DNA of 64,000 nucleotides from Clostridium thermobutyricum. Its GTDB lineage: Bacteria > Bacillota > Clostridia > Ch29. The stretch is taken from assembly GCA_016842005.1 (NCBI GenBank), contig JAENYD010000007.1, positions 1-64,000 on the forward strand. The letters are read 5' to 3'. Position numbers and translations under genes: made by a program. Positions 80-45,879 of the stretch are shown here, in pieces; positions within the stretch are counted from its first letter, which is position 1, and the number at the start of each line of letters is the position of its first letter. Under the pieces are notes generated by a model. That model was given only the letters and a program-made list of their open reading frames with translations, made no database searches and was not told the DNA's origin.

Positions 80-1084
80 CTATTGTCCTTTTACGAAAGT
101 TACAGGATTGACCACTTTTCCGTTAACTTCAACTTCAAAATGCACATGGGGACCTGTACTCATTCCGGTTGACCCAACCTTGGCTATAATCTGCCCCTTC
201 TCAACCCTGTCCCCTACCTTTACCAGATTTACGTCATTGTGGGCGTACAGAGTCTTGATACCATAGCCATGACTGAGCTTTACCACCTTGCCGTATCCGT
301 TCATCCATCCCGAGAAAACAACCACTCCCTTTCCCGTGGCTTTAATGGGAGTACCGCGTCTGGTAGCAATATCCACACCGGTGTGAAAGTTGTATTGGCG
401 GGTGAAGGGGTGCTTCCTGCCGCCAAACCTGGATGTTATTGTCCCGTATACCGGCAGGAAAGATGGCCTGGCCTCAAGATACGCCAGCCGGGCATCCACA
501 TCATTCAGTAATTTGTCCAATTCCGATTTTTGCACGTCCATCTGGCTGGACAGTATCTGGATGGAATTATTAAGCTGATTTACCGAACTCAACATCACAG
601 GACTGTTGGCTTCAGCTTCAGAGACAGCCTCTTTGATAACAACATCATCAGACACGGCAGAAATACCGGTTCTGTTCACATTTCCCCGTGATGCAACAAG
701 TACTTCCTCGAACTCCTCAAGTCTTTGGTCGCTCTTGTCTCTCAGCCCCACCATATTTCTAACCTGACCGTCAAACTTAATAAGATTCTCCATCTTGTTC
801 CTTACCTGCTCGCTGTAATTGTAAATATCGGCTATTTCCTGCTGATGGGCTTCTATATCCTGCTCAAGACATTCTATTCTGGCTAAAGAAGTATTGTACG
901 CCTTGCACAGGTCGGCAAAACCGGTTATGTTGGTGGTACTGTAGGTGAGGAACAGAGCTGTGAAAACTGCTGCCGATTTTAGAAGGGTTTTTTTGACACG
1001 AATTGTTTTTATTTGTTTATCGGGTCCGGATACAAACATTAAAGTTATGTAGTTGTCTTTGTTTGTGGAATATGCCTTTTTCAT
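80..1084 (-). CDS. M23 (LytM-type) peptidoglycan endopeptidase, membrane-anchored
   Basis: This is a predicted zinc metallopeptidase that cuts peptide cross-links in peptidoglycan outside the membrane. The 334-residue protein has a short basic N-terminus, one membrane segment (about residues 28-52), a coiled-coil stretch (about 60-130), and a C-terminal M23 domain (about 205-330). The zinc-site motifs HTGVD (near 233) and HVHFEVEVNG (near 311) are both intact. AGGAGG five bases before the ATG supports the start. A c-di-GMP-I riboswitch and an intrinsic terminator lie in its 5' leader, so expression should follow c-di-GMP. The coiled-coil plus M23 plan is shared with peptidases of division, sporulation and wall remodelling; the exact role is not readable from sequence. 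Confidence 0.93.
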   Translation of the reverse strand: MKKAYSTNKDNYITLMFVSGPDKQIKTIRVKKTLLKSAAVFTALFLTYSTTNITGFADLCKAYNTSLARIECLEQDIEAHQQEIADIYNYSEQVRNKMENLIKFDGQVRNMVGLRDKSDQRLEEFEEVLVASRGNVNRTGISAVSDDVVIKEAVSEAEANSPVMLSSVNQLNNSIQILSSQMDVQKSELDKLLNDVDARLAYLEARPSFLPVYGTITSRFGGRKHPFTRQYNFHTGVDIATRRGTPIKATGKGVVVFSGWMNGYGKVVKLSHGYGIKTLYAHNDVNLVKVGDRVEKGQIIAKVGSTGMSTGPHVHFEVEVNGKVVNPVTFVKGQ

Positions 1085-1268: not shown

Positions 1269-1350
1269 TCCGGCAACCCGGCTACCATGGCATTCACATG
1301 CTTTAGGCCCGTGGCTTTGCGTCCCTCTCTTTCGACAGGTTTGCCTTTAT
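1269..1350 (-). ncRNA. Cyclic-di-GMP-I (GEMM) riboswitch
   Basis: The minus strand carries the class I hallmarks in order: GGCAAACC, a CGAAAG tetraloop region, GGGACGCAAAGCCACGGG, CCTAA, and the closing GGTAGCCGGGTTGCC. These match the GEMM-I consensus, including the GNRA loop and its receptor segment. It sits about 185 nt upstream of the M23 peptidase, with a terminator in between. From the architecture it should control transcription elongation; whether ligand turns the gene on or off cannot be settled by eye. Confidence 0.96.
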
Positions 1351-1513
1351 CAGTTTGTTGTATAGTATCATTTCTACATTTTTTTTCTAATTCCTTCTTT
1401 TTGAATAAATTTTTTTAAATTTTTTCAAGCAAAAAATTCCTCTTTGTAATAAAGTATTCTTGAAATGTCTGTAGCAAATGATATGATAACGATGATTGTA
1501 TAGGTATAAGCAC

Positions 1514-1841: not shown

Positions 1842-1869
1842 ATTTATTGAAATTAAATATCGTATGGAC

Positions 1870-1986
1870 CATCTTCGGGGAAGGGTGAAAATCCCTACCG
1901 GCGGTACAGCCCGCGAATCGCCCCAAGCGATTGAACCGGTGAAATTCCGGGGCCGACAGTGAAAGTCTGGATGGGAGAAGATAAAT
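1870..1986 (+). ncRNA. FMN riboswitch (RFN element)
   Basis: The RFN hallmarks are present in order: ATCTTCGGGG, AGGGTGAAAATCCC, ACCGGCGGTA, AGCCCGCGA, GGTGAAATTCCGGGGCCGAC and GTCTGGATGGGAGAAGAT. It precedes a riboflavin transporter gene, the usual target of this switch. A terminator just downstream (2056-2085) suggests transcription attenuation by FMN. Confidence 0.97.
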
Positions 1987-2101: not shown

Positions 2102-2707
2102 ATGGAAAAAATCACACTAACGGTAAACTCAAGCGGATTGGGCAAACTGATCAAGGTGTCACTGCTTTCGGTTATTTCATTTTTACTGATGTATATAGAG
2201 ACACCCTTACCTCTTTTCCCTGTGTTTTTGAAACTTGATTTAAGCGATGTCCCCGCAATACTGGGCACATACGCCCTGGGCCCGGGAGCGGGAGTATTGA
2301 TACAGATACTGAAAAACCTGCTGCACCTGATACTTAAATGGGGGGCCGACTCCCCTGTAGGTGAACTGGCCAATCTGATCATCGGCATTTCCTTCGTCCT
2401 GCCTGCGGGACTGATATACAATCGTAACAAGACCAGGAAAACCGCCATAAAATCGATGGCTGTGGCAACCCTTGCCATGGGAATTACAGGGGGACTGGCA
2501 AACTATTATATCCTGATACCCTTTTACTCAAAGCTGTTTCCCCTGGAAATAATCATAGACATGGGACGCCAGGTAAACAATGCAATTGTAGACTTGAAAA
2601 GCCTTGTCCTGTACGGTATAATACCTTTCAACATCTTAAAAGGTACGGTGCTGTCAGCCGTTACACTGTCAATATATAAACACATATCAAAAATTCTTCA
2701 CAGGTAA
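2102..2707 (+). CDS. ribU: Riboflavin ECF transporter S component RibU
   Basis: This integral membrane protein (201 residues) is the substrate-binding S subunit of an ECF transporter. It binds riboflavin and works with a shared EcfA/EcfA'/EcfT module. It has about five to six hydrophobic helices and the RibU-like stretch KLDLSDVPAILGTYALGPG near residues 40-58. The start follows AAGGAGG at a normal distance. The FMN riboswitch directly upstream is strong independent support for riboflavin as substrate. No energising ATPase gene is adjacent, as is normal for group II ECF transporters. Confidence 0.94.
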   Translation: MEKITLTVNSSGLGKLIKVSLLSVISFLLMYIETPLPLFPVFLKLDLSDVPAILGTYALGPGAGVLIQILKNLLHLILKWGADSPVGELANLIIGISFVLPAGLIYNRNKTRKTAIKSMAVATLAMGITGGLANYYILIPFYSKLFPLEIIIDMGRQVNNAIVDLKSLVLYGIIPFNILKGTVLSAVTLSIYKHISKILHR

Positions 2708-2742: not shown

Positions 2743-2809
2743 ATTGATTGCCCCAAAGGTTATAATTATACTATGATTATAGAAGATTTTCTTTTGGAGG
2801 AGATAATCG

Positions 2810-5800
2810 ATGAGTGCCCCTTCCGCAAAAGACCTGTTCAATGAAGTTCATAAGACGCTTTCGGATCCGGAGGTTTTAAAGGCATTGTCCGTAGACCGGA
2901 CACTGGTGAAGGAATTGTTCGAAGATACGTCCTTTGCCCGTATGTTGGAACATATGGTTGAAAATAAAGATTACAGATGCAGTACGGTTCTTTCGCTGTG
3001 TAAAAGTGCGCTGAACAAACTGGCCGGGAATAACGCCCCCAAAAACTGGCTCCAATATATTTACCGGTTCACCCTCAGCAGGTCTTTCCCCCATACAGTT
3101 GATATCCCTCTTCTACCCGAATTGGACAGCGCCTGCACTCTGTATCTGAAAATTCTGAAGCTGGTTTGCCAGTATGAGAAATTCCACGGGACCCCGGACA
3201 ACTGGCAAAGTAAATATCCCCTTGAATTCCTGTCTCCCCGAGAACTGCAGAACCTGGAAGACGACGAATACAGAGCCTTCGTGAAAGCCTTTGAGAACGA
3301 ATATATATACGAGATGATGAAACTCAACAAGGAGGTCATGGGATATAATACCCTTGATCACATCTGTGGTGTGCATTATATGGCCTTGTTTATTGCCCGG
3401 CAGCTGCTTGATGCAGGTCTTCCGGTTGACCTGGGGAGAATATCAGGGGCGGCTGCAGGACACGATATCGGAAAATACGGGTGTAAAGGAGAAGAACTCA
3501 AAAGAGTTCCCTATCTGCATTACTATTACACCGACCAGTGGTTCAAAAATCACGATATTGTTTACATCCGTCATATAGCATTGAACCACTCCACCTGGGA
3601 CCTTGAACTGGAGAACCTGTCCCTGGAATCCCTTATTCTGATTTATTCTGATTTCCGCATAAAGAAGAAAGGTCCCCATATGCATGTCTTTACCCTGGAT
3701 GAAGCCTTTGATGTGGTACTCAACAAACTTGACAACCTGGACCAGGCGAAAGAAAAACGTTATCGCAGGGTATTCTCCAAGTTGAAAGATTTCGAAGATT
3801 TTCTGGTTCACATGGGTATCAATGTGGACATTGACAGCCCCAAAAATGAAAAAGCCCTCCCTGGCAACAGGGGGAACCACTACCCCCTCATGCAGGGTAA
3901 AGAGATTGTAGACAACCTGAAATATTTTTCAATCAACCACAATATCCGCCTTATGCACCAGCTTCGCAACGAGGCATCCCTCAATAGTTTGCTGGAGCTT
4001 GCCCGCAGTGAAGACAACTGGCATCATTTACGGGAATATCTGCGCATATTTGAAGAGTATTCCACATACCTTACCCAGAAACAAAAACTTATTACTCTTA
4101 ACTTTCTCTATGAACAACTGATCCACCCCGAAGAGGATATAAGGAGGCACAGTGCGGAGCTTATCGGGGCCTTGATAGCCCTGTTCGACGAAAAACACAG
4201 AAAAGAAGTTCCTCCAGATGCCAGTATCGACCCCCCCGATATTACCAGCTCTGAGCTACTGGACAAATATCTGGTCCTCTTTACCACCCCGGACCATAAG
4301 ATGATTCCCGCCCACCGTGTATGGATAAGACACAGTATGAGCATAATGATTTCCTCGCTGTTCACCCACTGCAAAAGTGACAAGGTGGACCCCTTCATCG
4401 GGGTACTGTCCAATTATTATAAAAAGAAATCCTTTGAGGAAAAGGATACTCAATTGTACCTGCTCAGGTCCGCAAAATATATTCCAGTATGGCGCAAGGA
4501 AAAATCTCTGGAAGCCATGTTTGATTTTATCCTGCAGGCACTGGAAGAAGAAGACCCTGCAATAAGGCTTGCAGCTCTGGAAACTACTTATAACTTGCTC
4601 CCTTTCCTCCATACCCACTGCACTCTGGTAAAGGGCGTAAAAAAAATGTTCCAGGAAAGTATAACTTACTCGGATATACCCGCGGAAAATTTTTTGAAAC
4701 TGAGAATTTCCGGGCTTCTTAACCTGGATAGAACTACTATTGAGACCTACAGCAATTTCAGCCAAAGAGACAAAGAAAAAATCGCAGACATATTTCTGTC
4801 AAATCTGAAGACAGCCACTCACTGGGTCAAGAAAAAAATCCAGGTGGACCTTTTGCTTGAGCATACCCTTAAAAATGATATAGAGAATGTGCTTCATACA
4901 GCCATGCACTTCTGCAACCTGATTAAGGTCAGTGCCGCAGAGAATGTAAGGAACAGGGCCGGGGAAGCCCTTGTGCAGATTATACCCCATTTGTCCCCCG
5001 ACCAGAGAAACGATGTTACCATTGAACTGCTCCGGGCCCTCGAAATTGAGGGCTACCAGTTCTCCAAGTACATCCCCTACTACCTGGGACAATTGATGCT
5101 TTACCTTCCCCCTGTGGAACTGGATGAGCTGATTGACGATTTAATAGAAAAGGTGAAACAGTCAAGACCCCAGGTAGTCTCACTACTTCTGAAGACAGTA
5201 GGTATTGCCCTTTCCAATTACCCCAAATATAAAGCCAGATTCAAAGAAGCCGACCGGTTGTACAATGAACGGCTGAAAAAGCTGCTGGGCATCCTTTTGA
5301 ACGGCATGGTTAACTATAACCTCCAGATAAGGCAGGTAGCCTTCAGTGTTATAGGAAAAGACATCTTCGGTTCCAAATTTCTCACCCTGGAACAGAAGAA
5401 TCAGGTATTCCAGCTTATTGCAAAGAAAATCTTAACAATGATAGCTTATGCCGAAGAGAAGAAGCGTCTGCCTTTTCTTTCCAATACTGCCGGATTGAAT
5501 CACATTTACAGGTTTATTTCGGACTATATGTTCTTCAAAGAAGATATCAATATCTGTATATCCAGAAAAGTGGCATTCTTCCCGGGCACCTTCGACCCCT
5601 TCACCCTCAGCCATAAGGAAATCACCAAGGAGATAAGAGACCTGGGTTTTGAAGTCTATCTGGCAGTGGATGAATTCTCCTGGTCCAAGCGTACCCAGCC
5701 CAATCTCATAAGAAGGAATATCATAAACATGTCTATTGCGGACGAGCTCGGTATTTATATTTATCCCGGAGATATACCCATTAATATTGCAAACCCGGCT

Positions 5801-7714
5801 GACCTAAAGACACTGCGAGAGAGCTTTCCCCATTCCGATGTATATATGGTGGTGGGCAGTGATGTAATAATGCATGCCTCAGGCTATCTGCAGGATAAAG
5901 AGGAATGCTCTGTTCACACCTTCCCCCATATCATTTTCGAGAGAAAAAGTCTTCTCTCCTCTGAGGAAGACGATAATAAGCTTGATGATGCCATAAGCAG
6001 GATAGACGGGGAAGTAATAAGGCTTTCCCTGCCCCCGCAGTATGAGGACATCAGTTCCACCCTTATCAGGGACTATGTAGACCAGAACCGCGATATATCA
6101 AGACTGGTGGATCCCCTTGCACAGAAATATATATATGAATACAGCCTCTACAGGAGGGAACCCCAGTATAAAACCATGATGCAGACAAGGTCAATAAGCG
6201 TGGAAGTATTAAGGGAATTCAGCCCGGAGCTGCTTGACAGATTATCCTCCGAAATCTTCAAAAACAAAAGGCAGGTGCTGGAACACCTCAGAGAACTGTC
6301 CAACAAACTCAATCCAAGGATACTGATTATACGGGAAGCAAACCGCCGTGGAAAACTGATGGGTTTCTCCGTTTTCCACGGGGTACGTTCCAGCATGCTT
6401 TTCCAGGAATTCAAAGACAATATGATATCTGAATATATCCGGGATAATGCAGTGGGCAGGATACTGGTTATAAACGGCATATTCGCAAAAAAAGACACCA
6501 GGTTCCCCAACCTTGAACAGATAATTCTTACCGAAACCCTGTCATACTGCCTTGAAAGGGACTACAGCTACGCTGTCTTTAAAAATGCAGTAGACAGTTA
6601 TTCCTCTCCTGACTTACATGATACGCTCAGACTCCAGGGATTTTTTCAGATACCTTACAGTGGCAGCATTAATCCTGTTTTTGCCGTAAATATGAACGCC
6701 CCCTGTACCCTGAATCTGGACGTGGATACCATTATCAAGGAACCCTTCAGGAGCAGTCCGGACATAAACCAGACAATAATCCGCTCCAGAAAAAGACTTC
6801 AGAAGGCCCTTACAATGCTTTACCCCGGACGTCTTGTGTTATCCTTTGACAGAAATGTAATGCACGAGAAACTGATCATGAAGATATGCAGTGAGAACGG
6901 CGTGCCTACAACACCTTCTGAACCCCGGATGCTGGGGCCTGCCATGTGTGTGCCTTATGGCAACATACTGAACAAATCAGTGGTACCCAACACCGTTACA
7001 AAATCCCTGCACACAGAAAAAATGTTTGCACCGGATATGAAAGATTTCCGGATAGGTCCCTTCCCCTATTATCTTGATCTGGAAGTCCAGGTCAGAATGC
7101 TCAGGTCCTTCGGCAGACCCATAATACTGGTGGATGACCTGCTGAACAAGGGCTACAGGATTAAAGCCCTGGACCCCCTGTTTAAAAGAGAAGGCATCAA
7201 TATAGAGAAAATAATCGTAGGGATACTTTCGGGCAGGGGAAAAGAACTGATGGATATACAGGACAGGGAGGTTGATTGCGCATATTTCATACCCAAATTG
7301 AAGGCATGGTTTAATGAGAAAGCCATGTATCCTTTCATTGGGGGAGACAGCCTGTGGAGAGGTATTTACCCTCGCAGAAATCTGTTGCCATCGGTCAACC
7401 TGATACTGCCGTATACATCTCCTACGTTTATTAATGATGCGTCCAACGCTGCCCTGTATAACCTGTCCCAGACCTGTATACAAAATGCACTTGATATACT
7501 GACAGCCCTGGAAACCGAATACCAGAACATAAACGAAAGGGCCTTGACCCTGGGTCTTCTGGGAGAGGTCATAATTCATCCCCGGTGCCCCGACCACGGA
7601 AAGAATATGGATTATGACCTGAGCCTCAAACCCTCCCATTACCTGAAAAATGACCTGGAGCTTTTAAAACGTCTGGAATTAAGCATTATCAAAGATGATA
7701 GGAAACATCTATAG
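2810..7714 (+). CDS. Giant multidomain protein: HD, helical repeats, NadD-like, GNAT-like, PRTase-like
   Basis: The protein has 1,634 residues and no single family name that I recognise. An HD-type metal-phosphohydrolase region (about 170-300) has LDHICGVH near 182 and AAGHDIGKYG near 216. A long alpha-helical stretch (about 370-880) looks like HEAT/ARM repeats. From about 920 a nucleotidyltransferase domain carries the NadD/CoaD-type signature FFPGTFDPFT and, near 1080, ISSTLIRDYV. A region at about 1120-1290 resembles GNAT acetyltransferases. A C-terminal part contains IILVDDLLNKGYR (near 1437), which resembles the PRPP-binding loop of phosphoribosyltransferases. The start follows GGAGG. 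It stands alone behind ribU and ends before repeat copy B. The HD and nucleotidyltransferase calls are firm; the last two are tentative. A role in nucleotide or NAD metabolism is inference. Confidence 0.88.
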   Translation: MSAPSAKDLFNEVHKTLSDPEVLKALSVDRTLVKELFEDTSFARMLEHMVENKDYRCSTVLSLCKSALNKLAGNNAPKNWLQYIYRFTLSRSFPHTVDIPLLPELDSACTLYLKILKLVCQYEKFHGTPDNWQSKYPLEFLSPRELQNLEDDEYRAFVKAFENEYIYEMMKLNKEVMGYNTLDHICGVHYMALFIARQLLDAGLPVDLGRISGAAAGHDIGKYGCKGEELKRVPYLHYYYTDQWFKNHDIVYIRHIALNHSTWDLELENLSLESLILIYSDFRIKKKGPHMHVFTLDEAFDVVLNKLDNLDQAKEKRYRRVFSKLKDFEDFLVHMGINVDIDSPKNEKALPGNRGNHYPLMQGKEIVDNLKYFSINHNIRLMHQLRNEASLNSLLELARSEDNWHHLREYLRIFEEYSTYLTQKQKLITLNFLYEQLIHPEEDIRRHSAELIGALIALFDEKHRKEVPPDASIDPPDITSSELLDKYLVLFTTPDHKMIPAHRVWIRHSMSIMISSLFTHCKSDKVDPFIGVLSNYYKKKSFEEKDTQLYLLRSAKYIPVWRKEKSLEAMFDFILQALEEEDPAIRLAALETTYNLLPFLHTHCTLVKGVKKMFQESITYSDIPAENFLKLRISGLLNLDRTTIETYSNFSQRDKEKIADIFLSNLKTATHWVKKKIQVDLLLEHTLKNDIENVLHTAMHFCNLIKVSAAENVRNRAGEALVQIIPHLSPDQRNDVTIELLRALEIEGYQFSKYIPYYLGQLMLYLPPVELDELIDDLIEKVKQSRPQVVSLLLKTVGIALSNYPKYKARFKEADRLYNERLKKLLGILLNGMVNYNLQIRQVAFSVIGKDIFGSKFLTLEQKNQVFQLIAKKILTMIAYAEEKKRLPFLSNTAGLNHIYRFISDYMFFKEDINICISRKVAFFPGTFDPFTLSHKEITKEIRDLGFEVYLAVDEFSWSKRTQPNLIRRNIINMSIADELGIYIYPGDIPINIANPADLKTLRESFPHSDVYMVVGSDVIMHASGYLQDKEECSVHTFPHIIFERKSLLSSEEDDNKLDDAISRIDGEVIRLSLPPQYEDISSTLIRDYVDQNRDISRLVDPLAQKYIYEYSLYRREPQYKTMMQTRSISVEVLREFSPELLDRLSSEIFKNKRQVLEHLRELSNKLNPRILIIREANRRGKLMGFSVFHGVRSSMLFQEFKDNMISEYIRDNAVGRILVINGIFAKKDTRFPNLEQIILTETLSYCLERDYSYAVFKNAVDSYSSPDLHDTLRLQGFFQIPYSGSINPVFAVNMNAPCTLNLDVDTIIKEPFRSSPDINQTIIRSRKRLQKALTMLYPGRLVLSFDRNVMHEKLIMKICSENGVPTTPSEPRMLGPAMCVPYGNILNKSVVPNTVTKSLHTEKMFAPDMKDFRIGPFPYYLDLEVQVRMLRSFGRPIILVDDLLNKGYRIKALDPLFKREGINIEKIIVGILSGRGKELMDIQDREVDCAYFIPKLKAWFNEKAMYPFIGGDSLWRGIYPRRNLLPSVNLILPYTSPTFINDASNAALYNLSQTCIQNALDILTALETEYQNINERALTLGLLGEVIIHPRCPDHGKNMDYDLSLKPSHYLKNDLELLKRLELSIIKDDRKHL

Positions 7715-7789: not shown

Positions 7790-7922
7790 ATTTTATCCGA
7801 TGGCTACCACAGCTAATACTCCCGTCTCTTAGATAGGAGATAAGCGGCGTTACGCCTCTGGATAACGATTTCTAAATTTCAGATGGGTTAAAACCCACCT
7901 GAAGCCAGGAATCCTGTTTATG
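7790..7922 (+). repeat. Dispersed structured repeat, copy B (complete)
   Basis: This is the best complete copy. It starts at TTTTATCCGATGG, has nested inverted repeats around CTCCCGTC, a GGCGTTACGCC hairpin, the closing GGATAA complementary to the opening TTATCC, a long TCAGATGGGTT hairpin, and the end CCTGTTTATG. The last bases supply the TAA stop codon of amtB on the opposite strand. Confidence 0.85.
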
Positions 7923-9198
7923 CCCTGTTATTGCTGAGCTGTAATTGGGTAGGGTTGAACCCCTTCATCTCAAAATCGGCATAACTCTCTATACCATGTT
8001 CCTCTAAATCCAGCCCCATTAACTCCTCTCTTTCGTTCACCCTGAGACCGACTGTTGCATTGATGAACTTAAACAGTACAAAGGTTGTAGACAGAGTCCA
8101 CAGGGCTACAGCTCCCATTCCCAGGGCCTGAACCCACAGCAGTGAAGTTCCCCCGCCATACAGAAGCCCTCCATCCTGTGCAAATATCCCTACCGCAACA
8201 GTGCCGGCAGCACCACAGAGACCGTGTACCGCTACAGCGCCCACAGGGTCATCAACTTTCAAAACTTTGTCTACCAGTTCAACGCCGTATACGATAACAA
8301 ACCCGGCTATCAGGCCTATTGCTGTTGCACCCAGAGGGCTTACGGCATCTGTTCCTGCCGTAATCGCAACCAGTCCGCCCAGGGCACCGTTAAGAGTCAT
8401 ACTAACATCAGGTTTGTTGTATTTCAGCCAGGTAATGGTCATTACAGTAACTGCGGCCATTGCAGCAGCCAGATTGGTGGTTACAAATATATGGGCAATA
8501 TCTCCTGCAGCCATTCCCGAAAGGGTAGACCCGGGGTTAAACCCAAACCAGCCGAACCAGAGTATGAAAACCCCCAGTGCTCCTAAAGTCAGGCTGTGGC
8601 CGGGAATAGTATTTGACCTGCCCCATTGGGTATACTTACCGATACGGGGACCCACAATCCATGCGCCTATAAATGCCGACCATCCGCCCACCGAATGAAC
8701 AACGCTTGAACCGGCGAAATCATGAAACCCCAATTGGCTCAGCCATCCGCCTCCCCATGCCCAGTGTCCCACTACCGGGTAAATAACCGCGCTGATAAAG
8801 AAACTGTAAATGAGATAAGATAGAAACTTGGTTCTTTCAGCCATGGCTCCCGATACAATGGTGGCAGCAGTAGCGCAGAATACCGTCTGGAAGATCAAAA
8901 ACGCTTCTTTGGGAATATTCAGCCCCAAATGCTCAAAACTTCCGGATGATAACAGTGATATTTCCCCTATAAACCCTCCTTTATCAATACCAAACATAAT
9001 ACTGAATCCCAAAATCCAGAAGGTCAATGAACCTACCGAAAAATCCATCAGGTTTTTCATTATGATATTTCCTGCGTTTTTGGCCCGGGTAAATCCTGTT
9101 TCAACCATTGCAAACCCGGCCTGCATGAAAAATACCAGAGTAGTAGCCAATAAAACCCATACCGTATCAACGGCAATTCCAATACTGGTTAAATCCAT
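7918..9198 (-). CDS. amtB: Ammonium transporter AmtB
   Basis: This Amt/MEP/Rh-family channel carries ammonium across the cytoplasmic membrane. Eleven or so hydrophobic helices can be counted over about 426 residues, and the family stretches FFMQAGFAMVETGFTRAKN, WGGGWL, DFAGSSVVHSVGG and GDPVGAV-like DDPVGAVAVHGLCGA are present, including both pore histidines (in VVHSVGG and VAVHGLCG). The ATG at 9198 is chosen because AGGAG lies eight bases before it; an ATG six bases upstream is too close to that site. No PII gene is adjacent, which is unusual for amtB. The gene is divergent from glutamate synthase, so both ends of ammonium assimilation share one control region. Confidence 0.96.
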   Translation of the reverse strand: MDLTSIGIAVDTVWVLLATTLVFFMQAGFAMVETGFTRAKNAGNIIMKNLMDFSVGSLTFWILGFSIMFGIDKGGFIGEISLLSSGSFEHLGLNIPKEAFLIFQTVFCATAATIVSGAMAERTKFLSYLIYSFFISAVIYPVVGHWAWGGGWLSQLGFHDFAGSSVVHSVGGWSAFIGAWIVGPRIGKYTQWGRSNTIPGHSLTLGALGVFILWFGWFGFNPGSTLSGMAAGDIAHIFVTTNLAAAMAAVTVMTITWLKYNKPDVSMTLNGALGGLVAITAGTDAVSPLGATAIGLIAGFVIVYGVELVDKVLKVDDPVGAVAVHGLCGAAGTVAVGIFAQDGGLLYGGGTSLLWVQALGMGAVALWTLSTTFVLFKFINATVGLRVNEREELMGLDLEEHGIESYADFEMKGFNPTQLQLSNNRA

Positions 9199-9268
9199 TT
9201 CCATTTCTCCTCTCATGTTTTTAATATATTTGATATATGCAGCTGCATTAAATAAAAAAGTCCACAGC

Positions 9269-9285
9269 ATCCCCCAGGGGGAACA
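9269..9285. promoter_or_regulatory. GC-rich palindrome in the amtB leader
   Basis: CCCCCAGGGGG flanked by AACAC, about 75 nt upstream of the amtB start. A near-copy with the same AACAC flank lies upstream of the divergent glutamate synthase genes. It could be an operator or an RNA hairpin. Confidence 0.5.
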
Positions 9286-9481
9286 CTATAGACTCCTTTG
9301 CCTATGTAATATCCATATCCACTTTGGCGTACCAATTATGTTTTTTATTATATCCATACCATCTGTTCCTGTCAATACTATTTTACAAAAAATTAACACA
9401 ATAATGCAAATTGCAAAAAATATTATTATTCTTGCATATTTATAAGAGTTATTAGATAATTGCCGAAATTGCAAATCAGTA

Positions 9482-9509
9482 TTGAGTTTTGCCGATTTGC
9501 TGGTATAAT
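9482..9509 (+). promoter_or_regulatory. Promoter of the glutamate synthase operon
   Basis: TTGAGT, 16 bases, TATAAT, with TGG just before the -10 (extended -10 character). It lies about 160 nt upstream of the first gene, leaving a leader that contains the GC-rich palindrome at 9558-9575. Confidence 0.65.
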
Positions 9510-9557
9510 GTACGTTATATATATAATAAATCTATATATAAAATTCCTTCGCAATTT

Positions 9558-9575
9558 TTCCCCGGGGGGAACACA
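9558..9575. promoter_or_regulatory. GC-rich palindrome in the glutamate synthase leader
   Basis: TTCCCCGGGGGGAA followed by CACATG, about 95 nt before the start codon. It mirrors the site at 9269-9285 in position and sequence, which suggests one shared regulator or RNA element for both divergent genes. Confidence 0.5.
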
Positions 9576-9668
9576 TGTACATAATGAATGATTTGCAAAA
9601 TTAATTTCATAATTGTTTATTTTTTAGAACAATCTCATATTCCGGATGTATATAAGGAGGCCCTGACC

Positions 9669-10787
9669 ATGAAAAGAGAAGGTGAAGTAAGAATTCCCTC
9701 AGGCTGCGCCATTTGCGGCATAATGAGTAAGAGGGGCGAAGTCTTTACAGGACAGGACATTATACAGTCAATAGCTGTGATGCATGAGCGTTCCAACGGA
9801 TTGGGGGGCGGATTTGCCGCATACGGCATATACCCTCAGTTTGAGGGTTATTATGCATTACACCTGTTCTATGATGATACGGCAGCCAAAATAGATACCG
9901 AATACTTTATATATAAACACTTTAATGTGGTTGATTCGGATGAAATACCCCGCAGAAAAACTGCCGGTGTTGAAAATCCGCCCATCATATGGCGCTACTT
10001 CGTGAGCCCCAAGGCTGACAGGCTTGTATGCCTGGGCTTTGATGAAGACGAATTCGTAGTGCAGTGTGTCATGAATATCAATAAATTGTTCAAAAACGCC
10101 TTTGTCTTCTCCAGCGGTAAAAACATGGGAACATTTAAAGGTGTAGGATACCCGGAGGATATAGGCGAATTCTACAGGCTTGATGAATACAGGGGATATA
10201 TGTGGACTGCCCACGGAAGATTCCCGACTAATACCCCCGGCTGGTGGGGAGGTGCTCATCCCTTTACCCTGCTTGACTGTTCGGTGGTGCACAACGGGGA
10301 ACTGTCTTCTTACCGGACCAACAGGAGATATCTTGAAGAATTCGGTTACAACTGCACCTTGCAGACAGACACCGAGGTGGTTGCTTATCTCTTCGACCTG
10401 CTCCACAGAAGGCACAACCTGCCTCCGGAGATGGTCTGCAATATACTGGCCCCTCCTTTTTACAACCATATTGACAGGATGGAAGATGAAACGAAGGCAT
10501 TGCTGAAAAACCTTCGCGTAATTTACGGGAAAGGATTGATGAACGGTCCTTTCTCAGTCATCATCGGGTGGAAAGAAGGCATGCTGGTCCTTAACGACAG
10601 GATTAAACTCCGTTCGGTAGTGGCTGCCTCCAAAAATGACATGTTGTATGTAGCCAGCGAAGAAGCAGCCATCCGCGAAATTTGCCCTGAACCCGAAAAA
10701 ATCTGGACCCCCAGGGGGAGCGACCCTGTAATAGGGAGGCTTGAAAAGCGAGGCAGTCTCAGGGTTGGAGGTGCAGAGGCATGCTAG
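9669..10787 (+). CDS. Glutamate synthase, class II glutamine amidotransferase subunit
   Basis: This is a separate GATase II (Ntn-hydrolase) subunit of an archaeal-type glutamate synthase. It releases ammonia from glutamine for the FMN subunit. I place the start at ATG 9669, behind AAGGAGG, not at an upstream in-frame codon without a ribosome site. The N-terminus is KREGEVRIPSGCAICGIM. The catalytic cysteine is therefore internal (Cys-12 or Cys-15) and would need N-terminal processing or a different arrangement. Further GATase motifs are RFPTNTPGWWGGAHPF and VVHNGELSSY. It overlaps the next gene by seven bases, so translation is coupled. Confidence 0.9.
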   Translation: MKREGEVRIPSGCAICGIMSKRGEVFTGQDIIQSIAVMHERSNGLGGGFAAYGIYPQFEGYYALHLFYDDTAAKIDTEYFIYKHFNVVDSDEIPRRKTAGVENPPIIWRYFVSPKADRLVCLGFDEDEFVVQCVMNINKLFKNAFVFSSGKNMGTFKGVGYPEDIGEFYRLDEYRGYMWTAHGRFPTNTPGWWGGAHPFTLLDCSVVHNGELSSYRTNRRYLEEFGYNCTLQTDTEVVAYLFDLLHRRHNLPPEMVCNILAPPFYNHIDRMEDETKALLKNLRVIYGKGLMNGPFSVIIGWKEGMLVLNDRIKLRSVVAASKNDMLYVASEEAAIREICPEPEKIWTPRGSDPVIGRLEKRGSLRVGGAEAC

Positions 10788-12280
10788 CGCAACTACCGCC
10801 GGAATACATGGTGGAAAGAGAACAGGGAAAATGTATAAACTGCAGGGCCTGTATAAAGCAGTGTTCCTTCGGAGTACACCAGTTAAACAAAAACAACGAA
10901 ATAATTGTCGATGAAACAAAGTGCGTGTGCTGTCACCGTTGTGTTGAGTTCTGCCCTGTCCGGGCAATTACTATCAGAAAAAACCCTCTCGCTTTCAGGG
11001 AAAATTTCAACTGGACCGGTAAAGCAATCCGTGAGATACAGAAGCAGGCTGCCACTGGAGGGATACTGCTGTCGGGAATGGGTAACCCGGAACCTTATCC
11101 CATTTATTGGGACCGCATTGTCATTAATGCCAGCCAGGTTACAAATCCTCCCATAGACCCGCTGAGGGAACCCATGGAGTTAAAAACCTTCCTGGGGAGC
11201 AAACCCGAAAGACTGCATATGGACAAACAGGGGAATCCATTACCAGAAATCCCTCCCCAGCTGGAGCTGGAGATACCTGTAATGTTTTCAGCCATGTCCT
11301 TCGGTTCCATAAGTCTAAACGCCTGCAAAGCCATTGCGGAAGCGGCTGCCCGTCTCGGTACCTGTTACAATACCGGGGAAGGCGGTCTGCACAAACATCT
11401 GGGCAGATATGCATCAAACACTATAGTGCAGGTGGCTTCAGGCAGGTTCGGAGTGAATTCGCAGTATTTAAACAACTGCGCTGCCGTAGAAATCAAAATA
11501 GGACAGGGGGCAAAACCGGGTATCGGCGGTCATCTTCCGGGAGAGAAAGTGGACAGGGAAATCTCCAGGACAAGGATGATACCGAAGGGGAGCGATGCCC
11601 TTTCCCCCGCTCCTCACCACGACATATACTCGATAGAAGACCTGAAACAGCTTATATTTGTGCTCAGGGAAACAACCGATTATGCCAGGCCCATAATAGT
11701 CAAAGTGGCTGCCGTTCACAACATATCCGCCATTGCTTCAGGCATTGCAAGGGCTGGAGCGGACATAATCGCTATTGACGGCTTCCGGGGCGGCACCGGG
11801 GCAGCCCCCACCCGTATTCGGGATAATGTGGGCATTCCCATCGAAATGGCTGTTGCATCGGTTGATACCCGTCTTAAAGAAGAAGGCATCCGGAAGCACG
11901 TATCAATCGTTGCCGGCGGCAGTATCAGGAACAGCGCAGATATAGTAAAAGCGATCGCCCTGGGTGCTGACGCCGTATATATAGGTACCGCCGCCCTTAT
12001 TGCCCTTGGCTGCCATGTGTGTCAGAAATGCTACACCGGTAAATGCAGCTGGGGTATTGCTACTCAGGACCCCGAACTGGTAAAAAGGCTGGATCCTGAT
12101 CAGGGTGCCGGCCGGCTTGTAAATCTTGTAACCGCATGGAAACATGAAATACAGGAGATGCTCGGGGGAATGGGGATAAATTCTATAGACAGCCTTCGCG
12201 GTAACAGGGATATGCTCAAAGGCGTAGGACTGAACCAGAAAGAACTTGAAATACTGGGTATTGGCGCTGCAGGTGAATAA
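10781..12280 (+). CDS. Glutamate synthase FMN/iron-sulfur subunit
   Basis: This subunit makes glutamate from 2-oxoglutarate and ammonia on FMN. The 499-residue protein has an N-terminal ferredoxin part with two CxxCxxCxxxC clusters (from residues 20 and 49). The GltB-type FMN barrel follows, with FSAMSFGSISL, NTGEGG, KIGQGAKPGIGGHLPG, AIDGFRGGTGAAP and VAGGSIRNSADIVKA. The late cysteine set CHVCQKCYTGKC fits the 3Fe-4S site. Compared with bacterial GltB, the amidotransferase and GXGXG parts are encoded by the flanking genes. No NAD(P)H-oxidising GltD is nearby, so reduced ferredoxin is a plausible electron donor; that is inference. Confidence 0.95.
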   Translation: MLAQLPPEYMVEREQGKCINCRACIKQCSFGVHQLNKNNEIIVDETKCVCCHRCVEFCPVRAITIRKNPLAFRENFNWTGKAIREIQKQAATGGILLSGMGNPEPYPIYWDRIVINASQVTNPPIDPLREPMELKTFLGSKPERLHMDKQGNPLPEIPPQLELEIPVMFSAMSFGSISLNACKAIAEAAARLGTCYNTGEGGLHKHLGRYASNTIVQVASGRFGVNSQYLNNCAAVEIKIGQGAKPGIGGHLPGEKVDREISRTRMIPKGSDALSPAPHHDIYSIEDLKQLIFVLRETTDYARPIIVKVAAVHNISAIASGIARAGADIIAIDGFRGGTGAAPTRIRDNVGIPIEMAVASVDTRLKEEGIRKHVSIVAGGSIRNSADIVKAIALGADAVYIGTAALIALGCHVCQKCYTGKCSWGIATQDPELVKRLDPDQGAGRLVNLVTAWKHEIQEMLGGMGINSIDSLRGNRDMLKGVGLNQKELEILGIGAAGE

Positions 12281-12285
12281 GATAG

Positions 12286-12475
12286 ACTTATAAACGGGGT
12301 TTCGAGCTTGGAAACCGTTATCCAGGGGCGTAGCACCGCTTATCTTTAGTTGGGGACATGCCGATGAGGACATTACTGTCCGCAGAGGAATGCCGGGGCT
12401 TCAGCAGGTGTGTCCCCTGACCTCTGACAGGGCCGGAGTATTGGCGGCGGTAGCCATCGAATAAATAGTTCTCTA
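12286..12475 (-). repeat. Dispersed structured repeat, copy C (with nested insert)
   Basis: This is a minus-oriented copy. Read on the minus strand it runs from GATGGCTACCGCCGCCAATACT to GGATAACGG and ends near GTTTATAAG, eight bases from the stop codon of the FMN subunit. The distal hairpin has decayed. The central loop carries an extra segment of about 75-95 nt (roughly 12348-12448) that copy D also has. It separates two genes of one operon. Confidence 0.8.
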
Positions 12476-12498
12476 GTCTAAAAGGAGGAGATGATATT

Positions 12499-13236
12499 AT
12501 GACTGTTATTGATGCAAAGGGAATACTGTACAGGGAAATAAACCGCCAGGTTAAAGCCGCAGCACAAAAAAATAACTGCGAGATAACCGTTACCAATGTG
12601 AACGGGCAAAGATACATCGGTGCCGGTCTGACAGAAAAGGTCAGCATTTTCATTGAAGGGGTACCCGGTAACGACCTGGCCGCTTTTATGAAAGGCCCCA
12701 GAATAGTGGTAAGTGCCAACGGACAGGATGCCATAGCCAATACCATGAGTGACGGTGAAGTTATTGTTAACGGTCTGGCGGGCGATGCTGTGGGATATGC
12801 CATGACCGGAGGATCGGTGTATATAAAGGGAAGTGCAGGGTACAGGGCCGGGGTCAACATGAAGGAATACAGAGATAAGGTGCCCGCCCTTGTGATAGGC
12901 AATAAAGCCGGTGATTTCCTGGGGGAATACATGGCAGGAGGAATACTGATTGTTCTGGGTCTTGATGCAGAAAAGGGAGAACCTGTTGTGGGAAATTACT
13001 GCGGAACCGGGATGCACGGTGGTGTTATATATATCAGGGGTGAAGCAGAGGACCACCGGCTGGGACGGGAAGTAAGGTGCATTGACATGGAAGATAAAGA
13101 CTACAAAAAAATTGAAGGTTATATAAAGAGTTTTTGTAAATACTTTCAGAAGGACTATTCCGAGGTCCTGGCAAGACCTTTTAAAAAGCTGGTACCCTCC
13201 AGTAATAGACCATACGGTAACCTTTATGCCTATTGA
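12499..13236 (+). CDS. Glutamate synthase GXGXG subunit
   Basis: This is the C-terminal beta-helix domain of GltB as a separate protein (245 residues). The spaced glycine repeats are visible, for example GDAVGYAMTGGSVYIKG, GYRAGVNM, GGILIVLG and GTGMHGGVIYIRG. In glutamate synthases this part helps hold and shape the barrel and tunnel. AAAGGAGGAG lies upstream of the ATG at 12499. The 218-bp gap to the FMN subunit is filled by repeat copy C, so the operon may be partly uncoupled here. Confidence 0.92.
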   Translation: MTVIDAKGILYREINRQVKAAAQKNNCEITVTNVNGQRYIGAGLTEKVSIFIEGVPGNDLAAFMKGPRIVVSANGQDAIANTMSDGEVIVNGLAGDAVGYAMTGGSVYIKGSAGYRAGVNMKEYRDKVPALVIGNKAGDFLGEYMAGGILIVLGLDAEKGEPVVGNYCGTGMHGGVIYIRGEAEDHRLGREVRCIDMEDKDYKKIEGYIKSFCKYFQKDYSEVLARPFKKLVPSSNRPYGNLYAY

Positions 13237-13323: not shown

Positions 13324-13371
13324 TTTATTATTCTCATGATTGGCTTATAATAAAATTTAGAGGTGACAGCA

Positions 13372-14616
13372 GTGCTGTATTACAAATATAAGGACAAGAT
13401 TCTGATCTCCCGGTTCAAGTATGCGGAACTGGACCGAATACCTGAAAATATGGCCAGAGACAGCCAGGGTATTATTTATGTGCTTAACAGGCTGGACCCG
13501 GCCAAATCCAGGAAGAGCTTCTGTATTTCCGACCCTTCCCTCATGTTTATCGACAGGGAAGACCTTCACCTGCTTAAAAAGCCTTCCGGCTCCCTCCCCC
13601 AATATCCTGAATGGCTTATGTCCCGGATAGACGCAAGGGAAGTCATGTCGGTCAATACTTTGTACCCGGGATGGCGGGAGACCCTGCACAGCGGCTTTCC
13701 TGAAAAATGGATCATTAATATCGTGGGGCTGGGAGATGTGGGAGGTACACTGACCATCGGCCTCCGGTTGCTGGGGGGAGACTGTATCTCGGGTATCGGA
13801 ATATATGCCAGGGACCGGAACAAGATAAAAAGGTGGGAATACGAGGCAAACCAAATCCTTGCTCCCTCTGGAGAATACAATTATCCTCCTGTGTACGGTG
13901 TATCCCCTGAAGATATTTTCCGCTGCGATATGCTGGTTTTCTGCGCCTCATCGGGGGTGCCCCCCATTGAAGATAAGGTGGATGATGTGAGGATGGCACA
14001 GTTTGAGCAGAATTCCCGTATATTAGCTGCGTATGCAAAAGAGGCCAGGGAAGCAAACTTCAGAGGAATATTCGCAATGGTATCCGACCCTGTTGATCTG
14101 TTGTGCAAAGCAGCATTTCTTTCGAGCAATGCCGGTGATACCGGCAAACTGGACTTTGAAGGGCTCAGCCCCGAACAGATACGGGGTTACGGCCTTGGTG
14201 TCATGCATGCCCGTGCTGTATATTATGCCGGGCAGGACCGCCGGACCATGCACTACCTGCGGGAAGGCCGGGCCTTTGGACCCCATGGCAGGGATCTGGT
14301 CATAGCAGACAGTATAAGGAATTATAATGAGAAATTATCTCTATATCTCACGGCCAAAACCATAAATGCCAACATGGAAGTCAGGGCCACAGGCTACAAA
14401 CCGTACATTGCTCCCGCCCTTTCCTCCGGGAGCCTGTCCATAATTGATACAATAAAAGGAAACTGGCACTACAGCGCCACTTTCCTGGGAGGGGTTTTCA
14501 TGGGTTCCATGAACAGACTGAACAAATCGGGTGTGGAACTTGAAAGGCTGGATATCCCTGAAGCCTTGTTTGAACGGCTGGAAAATACCTATAGAAAGCT
14601 GGGTAATACCCTATGA
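13372..14616 (+). CDS. Lactate/malate-dehydrogenase-like NAD-binding protein
   Basis: A Rossmann nucleotide-binding segment, WIINIVGLGDVGGTLTIGLRL, begins near residue 118. It is followed by regions typical of the LDH/MDH superfamily: DMLVFCASSGVPP, ILAAYAKEAREA and GIFAMVSDPVDLL, the last resembling the VTNPVD motif with Ser-Asp in place of Thr-Asn. An N-terminal part of about 115 residues is not seen in ordinary LDH or MDH. I take GTG 13372 as the start because AGAGGTG lies six bases before it; an in-frame GTG at 13363 lies inside that site. Its stop overlaps the next start (ATGA). The substrate is unknown, and the extra domain argues against plain LDH or MDH. Confidence 0.78.
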   Translation: MLYYKYKDKILISRFKYAELDRIPENMARDSQGIIYVLNRLDPAKSRKSFCISDPSLMFIDREDLHLLKKPSGSLPQYPEWLMSRIDAREVMSVNTLYPGWRETLHSGFPEKWIINIVGLGDVGGTLTIGLRLLGGDCISGIGIYARDRNKIKRWEYEANQILAPSGEYNYPPVYGVSPEDIFRCDMLVFCASSGVPPIEDKVDDVRMAQFEQNSRILAAYAKEAREANFRGIFAMVSDPVDLLCKAAFLSSNAGDTGKLDFEGLSPEQIRGYGLGVMHARAVYYAGQDRRTMHYLREGRAFGPHGRDLVIADSIRNYNEKLSLYLTAKTINANMEVRATGYKPYIAPALSSGSLSIIDTIKGNWHYSATFLGGVFMGSMNRLNKSGVELERLDIPEALFERLENTYRKLGNTL

Positions 14617-15662
14617 ATAAACTACACGTGATTATACCGGGCCGGATTTCCGGGCAACTGACAGACATGGTGGAAGCCGCAGTGGGGGATATTCCCCCGG
14701 TATTTATAACCGGCAGCCCGATCGACCAAGACCTCAGGGGTAAAAAAATCCTGTTTGCCGTGGAACTGGACCAAACAGGTTTTAACAGACCCCTGATGAA
14801 AATCTTCTCACAATTGTTCAGAAAGGGCAGGGATGCTCTTCTGGGTTCTGATGCAGCGGTTCTTGTGCACAGTTGCGGCCAGCTGTACACAAAAAGTGCG
14901 GCCCAGCATGTTGTATTCCTTGCAAATCAACTGGGCTGCCGGTTTCCTGGAAATCCGGTGGTGGAAGCCACCGGAGACCTGGACAATTTTCTCACATGGC
15001 AGAAGAAGCTGAATATGCCCATTTCGGACATATGCCTTGAACTTTGCCGGCGTCTCGGCAAAAGGCTGGAAAAAGATAACCCCCTTCCTGTTGAAAAGCC
15101 CGATATCCTGGTGCTGCACTCCAGCTCCCATCAGACCTCCAATACGCTCATGCTATGGCAGATGGTAAAGCAACATCTGTGTGACTGCAGGGTCAGGGAA
15201 CTGCATGTGGAAAACGGTACGGTGCTGGACTGCAAAGGATGCTCATACAGGACCTGCAAACACTACAGCATGCAGAAAAGCTGTTTCTACGGGGGGGTTA
15301 TGGTCAAAGAGATACTCCCCGAGATTGAAAAGGCCGATGCCATCGTATGGATCTGCCCCAATTACAACGATGCCATATCGGCCAACCTCATGGCAGTCAT
15401 AAACAGGATGACAGCTTTATACCGGCGGACAAAATTTTTTGACAAAACCCTTTTCTCGGTCATTGTATCCGGCAACTCCGGAAGTGACAGTGTTGCAAGG
15501 CAGCTCATCGGGGCACTGAATATAAACAAGAGCTTCAGGCTGCCGCCATACTTCGCCATTATGGCTACAGCCAATGACCCGGGAACCATCAGAAAGGTAC
15601 CCGGAATAGAAGAAAAGGCCATACAATTTGCCCAAAACATGATCAGGGAAATAAAGGCATAG
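14613..15662 (+). CDS. Flavodoxin-type NAD(P)H-dependent oxidoreductase with extra N-terminal region
   Basis: The C-terminal half (about 165-345) matches the flavodoxin/NADPH-dependent FMN reductase fold, with ILVLHSSSHQTSNT as phosphate-binding loop, CKGCSYRTCKH, and WICPNYNDAISANLMAVINR. Four cysteines around CKGC...TCKHYSMQKSC resemble the cysteine-rich insert of iron-sulfur flavoproteins, though spacing should be checked. The first 150 residues are not recognised. The gene overlaps the dehydrogenase-like gene by four bases, so the two proteins probably act together in one redox reaction. Confidence 0.78.
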   Translation: MNKLHVIIPGRISGQLTDMVEAAVGDIPPVFITGSPIDQDLRGKKILFAVELDQTGFNRPLMKIFSQLFRKGRDALLGSDAAVLVHSCGQLYTKSAAQHVVFLANQLGCRFPGNPVVEATGDLDNFLTWQKKLNMPISDICLELCRRLGKRLEKDNPLPVEKPDILVLHSSSHQTSNTLMLWQMVKQHLCDCRVRELHVENGTVLDCKGCSYRTCKHYSMQKSCFYGGVMVKEILPEIEKADAIVWICPNYNDAISANLMAVINRMTALYRRTKFFDKTLFSVIVSGNSGSDSVARQLIGALNINKSFRLPPYFAIMATANDPGTIRKVPGIEEKAIQFAQNMIREIKA

Positions 15663-29926: not shown

Positions 29927-29974
29927 CTGCATTAGTTACGCAGCTAAAGCGTAATTTTCATTTGCATTTATATA
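29927..29974 (-). repeat. Partial copy of the ssrA (tmRNA) tag region
   Basis: Of 48 positions, 41 match 48637-48684 of the real tmRNA gene, including 24 identical bases in a row, and the orientation is the same. It encodes NANENYALAA and a stop, preceded by TATATAAATG. The stop codon of the ECF fusion gene (29968) lies at its edge. The rest of tmRNA is absent. I read it as a recombination scar or old attachment site. Confidence 0.75.
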
Positions 29975-32760: not shown

Positions 32761-33632
32761 TTCCGATCCTCCTTTATGTTGATAACAACCGGTGCGATAC
32801 ACAGCGCCAGATAGCAAAGATACAGGCTGACAGGGTAAGGCTCCAGCCCCACACCCTTCATAGTAGGAAAGTATCGATAGTAAAGCCCTCTCAACGCAGA
32901 ACCTGTCATGATATACCCGCCACAAAAAACCAGGAAAAGCATAGCACTTTTGTCCCGCCTGTCGAACCGGTAAATGGAGAAAGCAGTGCGTCCCGGCAGT
33001 CCATAACCCCGGCTTTTCATAGAATCCGACGTTTCAATGGCATTTTCTAGCGCCCATGTCACCATGATGGACAGTATTTTGATGCCGTGCTTTGCCCGCT
33101 GCAAAAGGCTTCCGTTGGACACATCCCGTCCCACACACTTCTGTGCGTCTGACACAACCCTGAGATACGCCTTAAAACGAGGCACAAAGCGAAGGGTCAT
33201 TGACAAAATCAGCGATAGAGCAGGAATCACCCGCCCAAAAAGATATACAAACTTGTCTGAAGTCATGATGGCGTTATAGCAGGAAAACCAGCACATAACA
33301 GTAATAATCATCACTGCTGCCGCAATGCCGTAGGTAATAGATTCCAGCGTCAAGGGATTACCGTCCCGCAGATAAGTGAGAATAGTCCCTCCTTCATGAT
33401 TGAAGGCGGGATTAACGAGTGCGGTAACAACCAGCATGGGAAGCATATATCTCAGATTGAAACGCAGTGCCTTTCTTCCGTTTAGATAAACCGAATAGCT
33501 AAGAGCGCATAACAGCGAAATGCCAAGACATACCGGATGCATGAAGAACATGGAAAATAATATCACCAGCGCAAAATACAGAAAATTGACCACCGGATGG
33601 TAGGAAGAAAAAGCATCCTTCATTATTATCAT
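32733..33632 (-). CDS. ecfT: ECF transporter transmembrane component EcfT
   Basis: The 299-residue protein has five to seven hydrophobic helices and the EcfT/CbiQ-family coupling segments: the arginine-rich stretch ALENAIETSDSMKSRGYG (near 195-212) holds the conserved A-R-G type motif that contacts the ATPases. It starts within the stop of the DUF4430 gene (ATGA overlap) behind AGGAGG, and its end overlaps the ATPase fusion gene. EcfT and the fused ATPases and S part therefore form a complete, dedicated ECF complex. Confidence 0.9.
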   Translation of the reverse strand: MIIMKDAFSSYHPVVNFLYFALVILFSMFFMHPVCLGISLLCALSYSVYLNGRKALRFNLRYMLPMLVVTALVNPAFNHEGGTILTYLRDGNPLTLESITYGIAAAVMIITVMCWFSCYNAIMTSDKFVYLFGRVIPALSLILSMTLRFVPRFKAYLRVVSDAQKCVGRDVSNGSLLQRAKHGIKILSIMVTWALENAIETSDSMKSRGYGLPGRTAFSIYRFDRRDKSAMLFLVFCGGYIMTGSALRGLYYRYFPTMKGVGLEPYPVSLYLCYLALCIAPVVINIKEDRKWKSILSKI

Positions 33633-36300: not shown

Positions 36301-36423
36301 ATAGCATTCTCCTTTCTGAAAGGCCTGTTAATGCTACTTTGTTGAGTTGCTAATAAAACTGTAGTTCCCAACAACTTATAATTGAAAGCCACTTAGACCC
36401 GTTATGTCAAAACATGGCATATC

Positions 36424-42972: not shown

Positions 42973-43086
42973 GATTTCAACCCCCATCATCCATTTAAAA
43001 ACGGAGTTCAAATATTATAAGGGGGACCCGTGCAAATGTACACGGGACCCTTTCATTACCCTTTAACCTTGGGCTGGTGCATACGA

Positions 43087-45639: not shown

Positions 45640-45682
45640 TGCAAAGCACCTCCCTATCATCCGTAGAGTATTATGGTGCATA

Positions 45683-45856
45683 AAACAGGCAGGTCTTCTG
45701 GCTCAAGTATCATCGCTCCTGCTGCCTTCCCGGTCTCCCAGTGGCATTTGGCAAGAGCTCCTCTTTCACAGCGGCGGGACCGCGCGGGATTTTCACCCGC
45801 TTCCCTTTTCACCGATTCATGGACTGATATCAACTCCATAACCGGCACCTGTATTA
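45683..45856 (-). ncRNA. Cobalamin riboswitch
   Basis: On the minus strand the canonical elements appear in order: AGGTGCCGGTTATGGAG, TGAAAAGGGAAGCGGGTG, AAAATCCCGC, GCGGTCCCGCCGCTGTGA (B12 box region), GCCACTGGG, CCGGGAAGGC and GAGCCAGAAGACCTGCCT. This is an excellent match to the AdoCbl-class consensus. It heads the minus-strand operon reaching to 29968. A GCACC just after the aptamer can mask the ribosome site of the first gene, so at least part of the control is translational. Confidence 0.97.
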
Positions 45857-45879
45857 TGTGTCTCTTCTATCGAGTATAT

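Follow-up and report, generated by a model that had tools for sequence, protein, structure and literature searches.

The gene at 2810-7714 (+) of the window, that is, of the whole 64,000-nucleotide stretch of DNA that was analysed, is the first of a three-gene system. Its product (the large protein; 1,634 aa) joins an HD domain, a helical scaffold, a NadD-like nucleotidyltransferase (NTase), a GNAT fold and a type I phosphoribosyltransferase (PRTase) fold, and the other two genes encode a lactate/malate dehydrogenase (LDH/MDH)-fold protein and an FMN_red-type flavoprotein. We propose, with a probability of a little under one half, that the large protein assembles and proofreads a nucleotide by phosphoribosyl transfer, adenylyl transfer and HD diphosphatase action, and that it does so on an NAD-like or other dinucleotide tied to the redox partners.

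If this is true, the genomes of many anaerobes carry the genes of a so far undescribed pathway for building or recycling a nucleotide cofactor, the enzyme and the likely redox clients being identified, and the pairing of synthesis and proofreading in NadD-YqeK is extended to a new substrate. Each domain is already known; the set of five, together with the altered NadD pocket and the accompanying redox genes, forms a new combination that is apparently undescribed. No curated family was matched above its equivalog cut-off, and no paper on such a five-domain protein was found in the open-access literature.

Spread of the large gene

The original prediction had read 2810-7714 as a fusion of 1,634 residues, and this reading holds. 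A GGAGGAG ribosome-binding site lies just 5′ of the ATG (2796-2802 (+), from the sequence), and about 80 other genomes carry a full-length ortholog, so the ORF is not a chance one. The relatives were collected from one genome per species across 84,980 species, and the best 80 of 123 stretches were kept as loci; among these the orthologs are 44-62% identical to the window protein and nearly all full length unless cut by a contig end. The hosts (about 80 further genomes) are mostly Clostridia, plus one Atribacterota clade. In the tree (quick method, midpoint root), the Atribacterota copies form a single supported clade amid those of Clostridia, which suggests that they were acquired by transfer. 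The three-gene set is directly testable, and cultured carriers exist, including Clostridium carboxidivorans P7, Caloramator spp. and Acidaminobacter hydrogenoformans.

Among 293 genomes of the same class, 22 (from 18 genera) carry the large protein, all with E < 1e-150, and the others gave no match. No standalone relatives of the C-terminal part were found in these 293 genomes either; the non-carriers being blank, there is no twilight of partial C-terminal relatives. A role in sporulation was set aside, as in 6 of the 22 carriers no match is of Spo0A grade (the best E values being only 1e-18 to 1e-25). An origin from phage or defence systems was likewise rejected: the large protein matched 0 PADLOC families, had one weak PHROG match (function unknown) and found no relatives in IMG/VR.

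Two observations on unusual copies were also made. A 41%-identical full-length homolog in Acetoanaerobium noterae (L142; NZ_CP154629.1) lies on a 2.6-Mb record that is filed as a plasmid and, from its size, looks like a chromosome, and the genomes G125 and G144 harbour second, diverged copies of the large gene (L123 and L126) that are without adjoining partner genes.

Redox partner genes and their co-inheritance

The original prediction treated the large gene alone and overlooked its redox partners. In 75 loci (from the best 80 of 123 stretches), the next gene on the same strand encodes an LDH/MDH-fold protein of ~415 residues (partner 1), and in 67 the gene after it encodes an FMN_red flavoprotein of ~349 residues (partner 2). 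The large gene and partner 1 are mostly separated by less than about 30 bases, and partners 1 and 2 mostly overlap by 4 bases. A few Clostridium loci have the large gene and partner 1 without partner 2 next to them; in the most divergent carriers all three genes are retained. The conserved surroundings include no glycosyltransferase, synthase or transporter gene.

The usual place of partner 1 is immediately downstream of the large gene. In the window, partner 1 (13363-14616 (+); 417 aa) and partner 2 (14613-15662 (+); 349 aa) are displaced from it by a block of ammonium-transporter and glutamate-synthase genes, and in a close relative a gap of 5.4 kb separates the large gene from its partners too. 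The block (7918-13236) holds the ammonium transporter gene on the opposite strand (7918-9270 (-)) and a ferredoxin-containing glutamate synthase that is split into three genes (GATase, Glu_synthase and GXGXG).

Co-inheritance of the large gene and partner 1 is all-or-none. Of the 293 genomes, exactly the 22 with the large gene have orthologs of the LDH-like protein (E < 1e-120), against 0 of the remaining 271; further LDH-like matches in these class genomes are weak and look like ordinary LDHs. Co-occurrence in 22 of 22 would arise by chance at about 1e-33 if the genomes were independent; they are related, with 18 genera involved.

Partner 1 matches LDH in the PDB (E 8e-9 over the NAD-binding fold) and shares with lactate/malate dehydrogenases that fold, the GxGxxG glycines, the mobile-loop Arg and the equivalents of Arg171 and His195. 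In LDH, the Asn of SNPVD is a substrate-binding residue, Arg171 binds the substrate carboxylate and His195 is catalytic. Unlike these dehydrogenases, partner 1 carries SDPVD for SNPVD (Asp replacing Asn), has no Asp168 equivalent and begins with an N-terminal extension of ~110 residues. Partner 2 matches PF03358 (E 8e-22) and harbours an invariant C-x2-C-x4-C-x8-C motif. Iron-sulfur flavoproteins carry a compact four-Cys motif, and that of partner 2 is a putative Fe-S site; its 2-4-8 Cys spacing and an N-terminal part of ~160 residues without Pfam match set it apart from FMN_red proteins and iron-sulfur flavoproteins.

Upstream of the large gene in the window, an FMN riboswitch (1867-1986 (+)) precedes a gene for an ECF transporter S component (2102-2707 (+); riboflavin transporter-like) that ends 102 bases before the large gene. 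This riboswitch was considered and rejected as a family-wide regulator, since just two genomes, this one and a close relative, have the ECF gene upstream, and a terminator-like hairpin (2715-2736) intervenes between the ECF gene and the large gene.

Domains of the large protein

Sequence searches of solved structures with N- and C-terminal profiles returned nothing useful, and the domains were assigned from predicted structures of residues 1-345 and 1116-1634 together with Pfam models and residue conservation. The N-terminal model (AlphaFold, residues 1-345) is confident (pLDDT 94.0, pTM 0.92) and contains the HD domain (approximately residues 166-300; 3305-3709 (+)). Its best HD-type Foldseek matches are the phosphohydrolases 1xx7 and 2cqz and the PgpH phosphodiesterase 4s1c, at probability 0.95-0.98 and E of only 0.2-0.5. 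The match of Pfam HD to the window protein is weak (E 0.13 at full length, 0.016 as a segment), and 38 of 52 members have a match (best 1.8e-4); as the Foldseek E values are weak, the assignment rests on both lines together. All six metal ligands (H184, H218, D219, H237, H260 and D281) are invariant in 82 of 82 members, so that the HD site named in the original prediction is borne out.

The dinuclear H..HD..H..H..D signature is the YqeK motif (PMC8177086); all 82 members of the large-protein family have it, and their ligands follow one another as they do in clostridial YqeK. On profile comparison, assignment to YqeK was rejected: hhalign between the two profiles gave a non-significant probability of 0.4%, and the YqeK structure 3ccg came only at rank 43 (E 1.0) when the HD model was searched with Foldseek. 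Shared ligand order and negative profile comparison taken together, the domain is, as judged from its sequence, a dinuclear-type HD domain of YqeK-like layout and not a YqeK.

Residues from about 345 to 905 (3842-5524 (+)) are presumed to form a HEAT-like helical scaffold. The long helical scaffold that had been proposed earlier is right in outline, the sequence support being one HEAT repeat just below the Pfam cut-off (22.1 versus 23.5 bits).

The NTase (residues 917-1118; 5558-6163 (+)) carries the motifs GTFDPFTLSH, DEFSWSK, GSDV...Y1026 and ISSTLIR. It scores above the gathering threshold of PF01467 (25.9 versus 21), and G926, F928, D929, H935, S1082, S1083 and R1087 are invariant; the intact signature of GTFDPFT (with H935) and SSTLIR reported before is therefore real. 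NadD models score 34-39 bits on the window protein and at most 59 on other members, CoaD scores 24 bits, and no member's NTase reaches the TIGR00482 NadD equivalog cut-off (112.45 bits). Aligned with the canonical NadD and CoaD proteins of these genomes, the NTase tracks NadD to the end, including ISSTxIR...RDISxLVxP...YIY...LY.

With NadD the domain thus shares the fold, GxFDP...H and ISSTxIR, but three NadD motifs are replaced in it throughout. HxGH has Ser/Thr for its first His (S/TxxH), SWSK stands for PPHK (inside an invariant DEFSWSK), and Tyr1026 takes the place of the Trp that NadD has eight positions beyond GxD (GxDx7W). In NadD, this Trp stacks on the pyridine ring. By these residues, the NTase looks like a NadD paralogue re-tuned to another substrate.

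The C-terminal model (AlphaFold, residues 1116-1634; pLDDT 87.7, pTM 0.90) was compared with known folds, as the C-terminal parts might have matched unrelated ones. GNAT and type I PRTase folds were matched instead (Foldseek E 1.8e-5 for GNATs of the PDB and 3-4e-4 for the xanthine and uracil PRTases XPRT and UPRT), so that both earlier calls are right at the level of the fold. The GNAT-fold domain (approximately residues 1129-1305; 6194-6724 (+)) has its fold in common with GNAT acetyltransferases but, by alignment, wants their acetyl-CoA loop: [RQ]xxGx[GA], expected between beta4 and alpha3, occurs in 0 of 82 members. This makes acetyl transfer doubtful. An acetyltransferase role was therefore rejected, and the domain probably serves for binding or as a spacer.

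The PRTase-fold domain (approximately residues 1341-1530; 6830-7399 (+)) is also matched by Pfam Pribosyltran in 19 of 56 members. Its motif IILVDDLLNKGYR (residues 1438-1450; 7121-7159 (+)) contains the VDDLLNKGYR that had been likened to a PRPP loop, and the alignment agrees: D1442, G1448 and R1450 are invariant, D1443 is Asp or Asn (Asn in 17 of 82), and such a loop is shared with the xanthine and uracil enzymes. KGYR stands where the loop of type I PRTases usually ends in small residues. Moreover, a PNTxTKxxHxEK segment is near-invariant. Peculiar to the large protein are the setting in a giant fusion and the variability among the 82 members of residues 1347-1352, which follow the first core strand and approximately mark the expected place of the pyrophosphate loop. 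From this variability, it is possible that the PRTase domain binds its ligand without catalysis.

Proposed function and alternatives

The closest mechanistic precedent for the large protein is NadD-YqeK. The genes for NadD and YqeK adjoin in the window's own genome and are fused in another (L012). In a NadD-YqeK fusion such as JCVISYN3A_0380, NaAD and incorrect products of NadD are hydrolysed by the HD domain, which thereby acts as a proofreading diphosphatase (PMC9426524). Common to both systems is a NadD-family NTase combined with a dinuclear-ligand HD domain in one polypeptide, whereas the large protein has the two in reversed order with a scaffold of ~560 residues between them, has GNAT and PRTase folds added and its NadD pocket motifs replaced, and coexists with canonical NadD-YqeK in the same genome.

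In the proposed scheme, the PRTase domain would convert PRPP and a base or base-like compound into a mononucleotide, the NadD-like domain would adenylylate this to a dinucleotide, and the HD domain on its long scaffold would hydrolyse incorrect or used (di)nucleotides, the role that YqeK has as a neighbour or fusion partner of NadD. Oxidation or reduction of the product might fall to the LDH-like protein and the flavoprotein, or the product might serve them as cofactor; the presence of redox partner genes suggests a product that either is a redox-active nucleotide or derives from one. What the analysis shows directly are the folds, the invariant catalytic residues of the HD domain and the NTase, the operon, its all-or-none co-inheritance with partner 1 and the persistence of canonical NadD alongside; we infer the activity of the three catalytic domains, the order of the steps and the NAD-like nature of the product, with the NadD-YqeK fusion as the model. 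Support for a multi-step enzyme comes from the HD ligands, the invariance of the NadD-derived NTase and the PRTase fold with its PRPP loop intact, as well as from the NadD-YqeK adjacency, fusion and proofreading precedent, the conserved partner loci and the co-occurrence among the class genomes. It is weakened by the variable pyrophosphate-loop region, the Asn at D1443 in some members, the HD-YqeK profile comparison, the NTase pocket unlike that of NadD and the Clostridium loci in which partner 2 is missing. A more specific version is considered improbable: the three genes together would produce, proofread and employ a non-standard dinucleotide that resembles NAD but has a different base, the LDH-like protein being its dedicated dehydrogenase and the flavoprotein its redox exchanger. 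If true, anaerobic Clostridia and Atribacterota would possess a redox cofactor system that has gone unrecognised.

The original prediction had suggested that one polypeptide may carry out linked steps of nucleotide or cofactor salvage. Linked steps in such metabolism are still the most likely class of function, but ordinary NAD salvage is now unlikely: canonical NadD is present in 21 of the 22 carriers, most carriers have NadC (above cut-off in 13) or a PncB-type enzyme (11, with divergent PncB-like proteins in several others), and the NTase pocket is invariantly changed. With canonical NadD in nearly all carriers, the large protein is not the cell's main NAD synthase, and replacement of canonical NadD by it was rejected. 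Against this background, a backup route on one polypeptide, from base and PRPP through the mononucleotide to an NAD precursor, is given very little credence, even though NadD models are the best HMM matches of the NTase and one carrier (G003) has no canonical NadD above cut-off; that genome is a draft assembly and the absence may be an assembly gap. The type I PRTase fold is also, to our knowledge, not the fold of NAPRT or NAMPT.

A rather doubtful alternative is that of a metabolite sensor or regulator, whose PRTase and GNAT domains would bind nucleotides or PRPP while the HD domain, the NTase or both make or destroy a signal that tunes the redox partners. PRTase folds do serve as sensors, for example in the PurR repressor of Bacillus, and the missing acetyl-CoA loop, the unconserved pyrophosphate loop and the large scaffold would suit such a role. 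Strict invariance of the HD and NTase catalytic residues argues against it, however, as does the strong conservation of the PRPP loop and of PNTxTKxxHxEK, which looks like catalysis; nor was a DNA-binding domain found in the large protein by Pfam and curated-family model searches. It is also unlikely that the NTase activates a phosphorylated acid or sugar that the partners modify, so that the activated precursor of a secondary or cell-surface compound results. This route would fit the Ser/Thr at the first position of HxGH, a trait of members outside NadD such as CoaD, and the carboxylate-binding Arg and catalytic His equivalents kept by partner 1 hint at a hydroxy- or keto-acid; yet the PRTase fold and the dinuclear HD domain have no obvious place in it, and the genes for a glycosyltransferase, synthase or transporter are not among the conserved neighbours.

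Elsewhere in the window, a c-di-GMP-I riboswitch (1269-1355 (-)) lies just upstream of a same-strand Peptidase_M23 (LytM-type) gene (80-1084 (-)), and a cobalamin riboswitch is found at 45671-45867 (-). Tandem SLH-domain proteins of 556 and 2,195 residues are encoded at 34630-43011 (-), the larger being without other Pfam match at 1e-8. Finally, a 985-residue ORF (29968-32925 (-)) combines ABC ATPase domains with an ECF-type S component and is thus an apparent fused ECF transporter.
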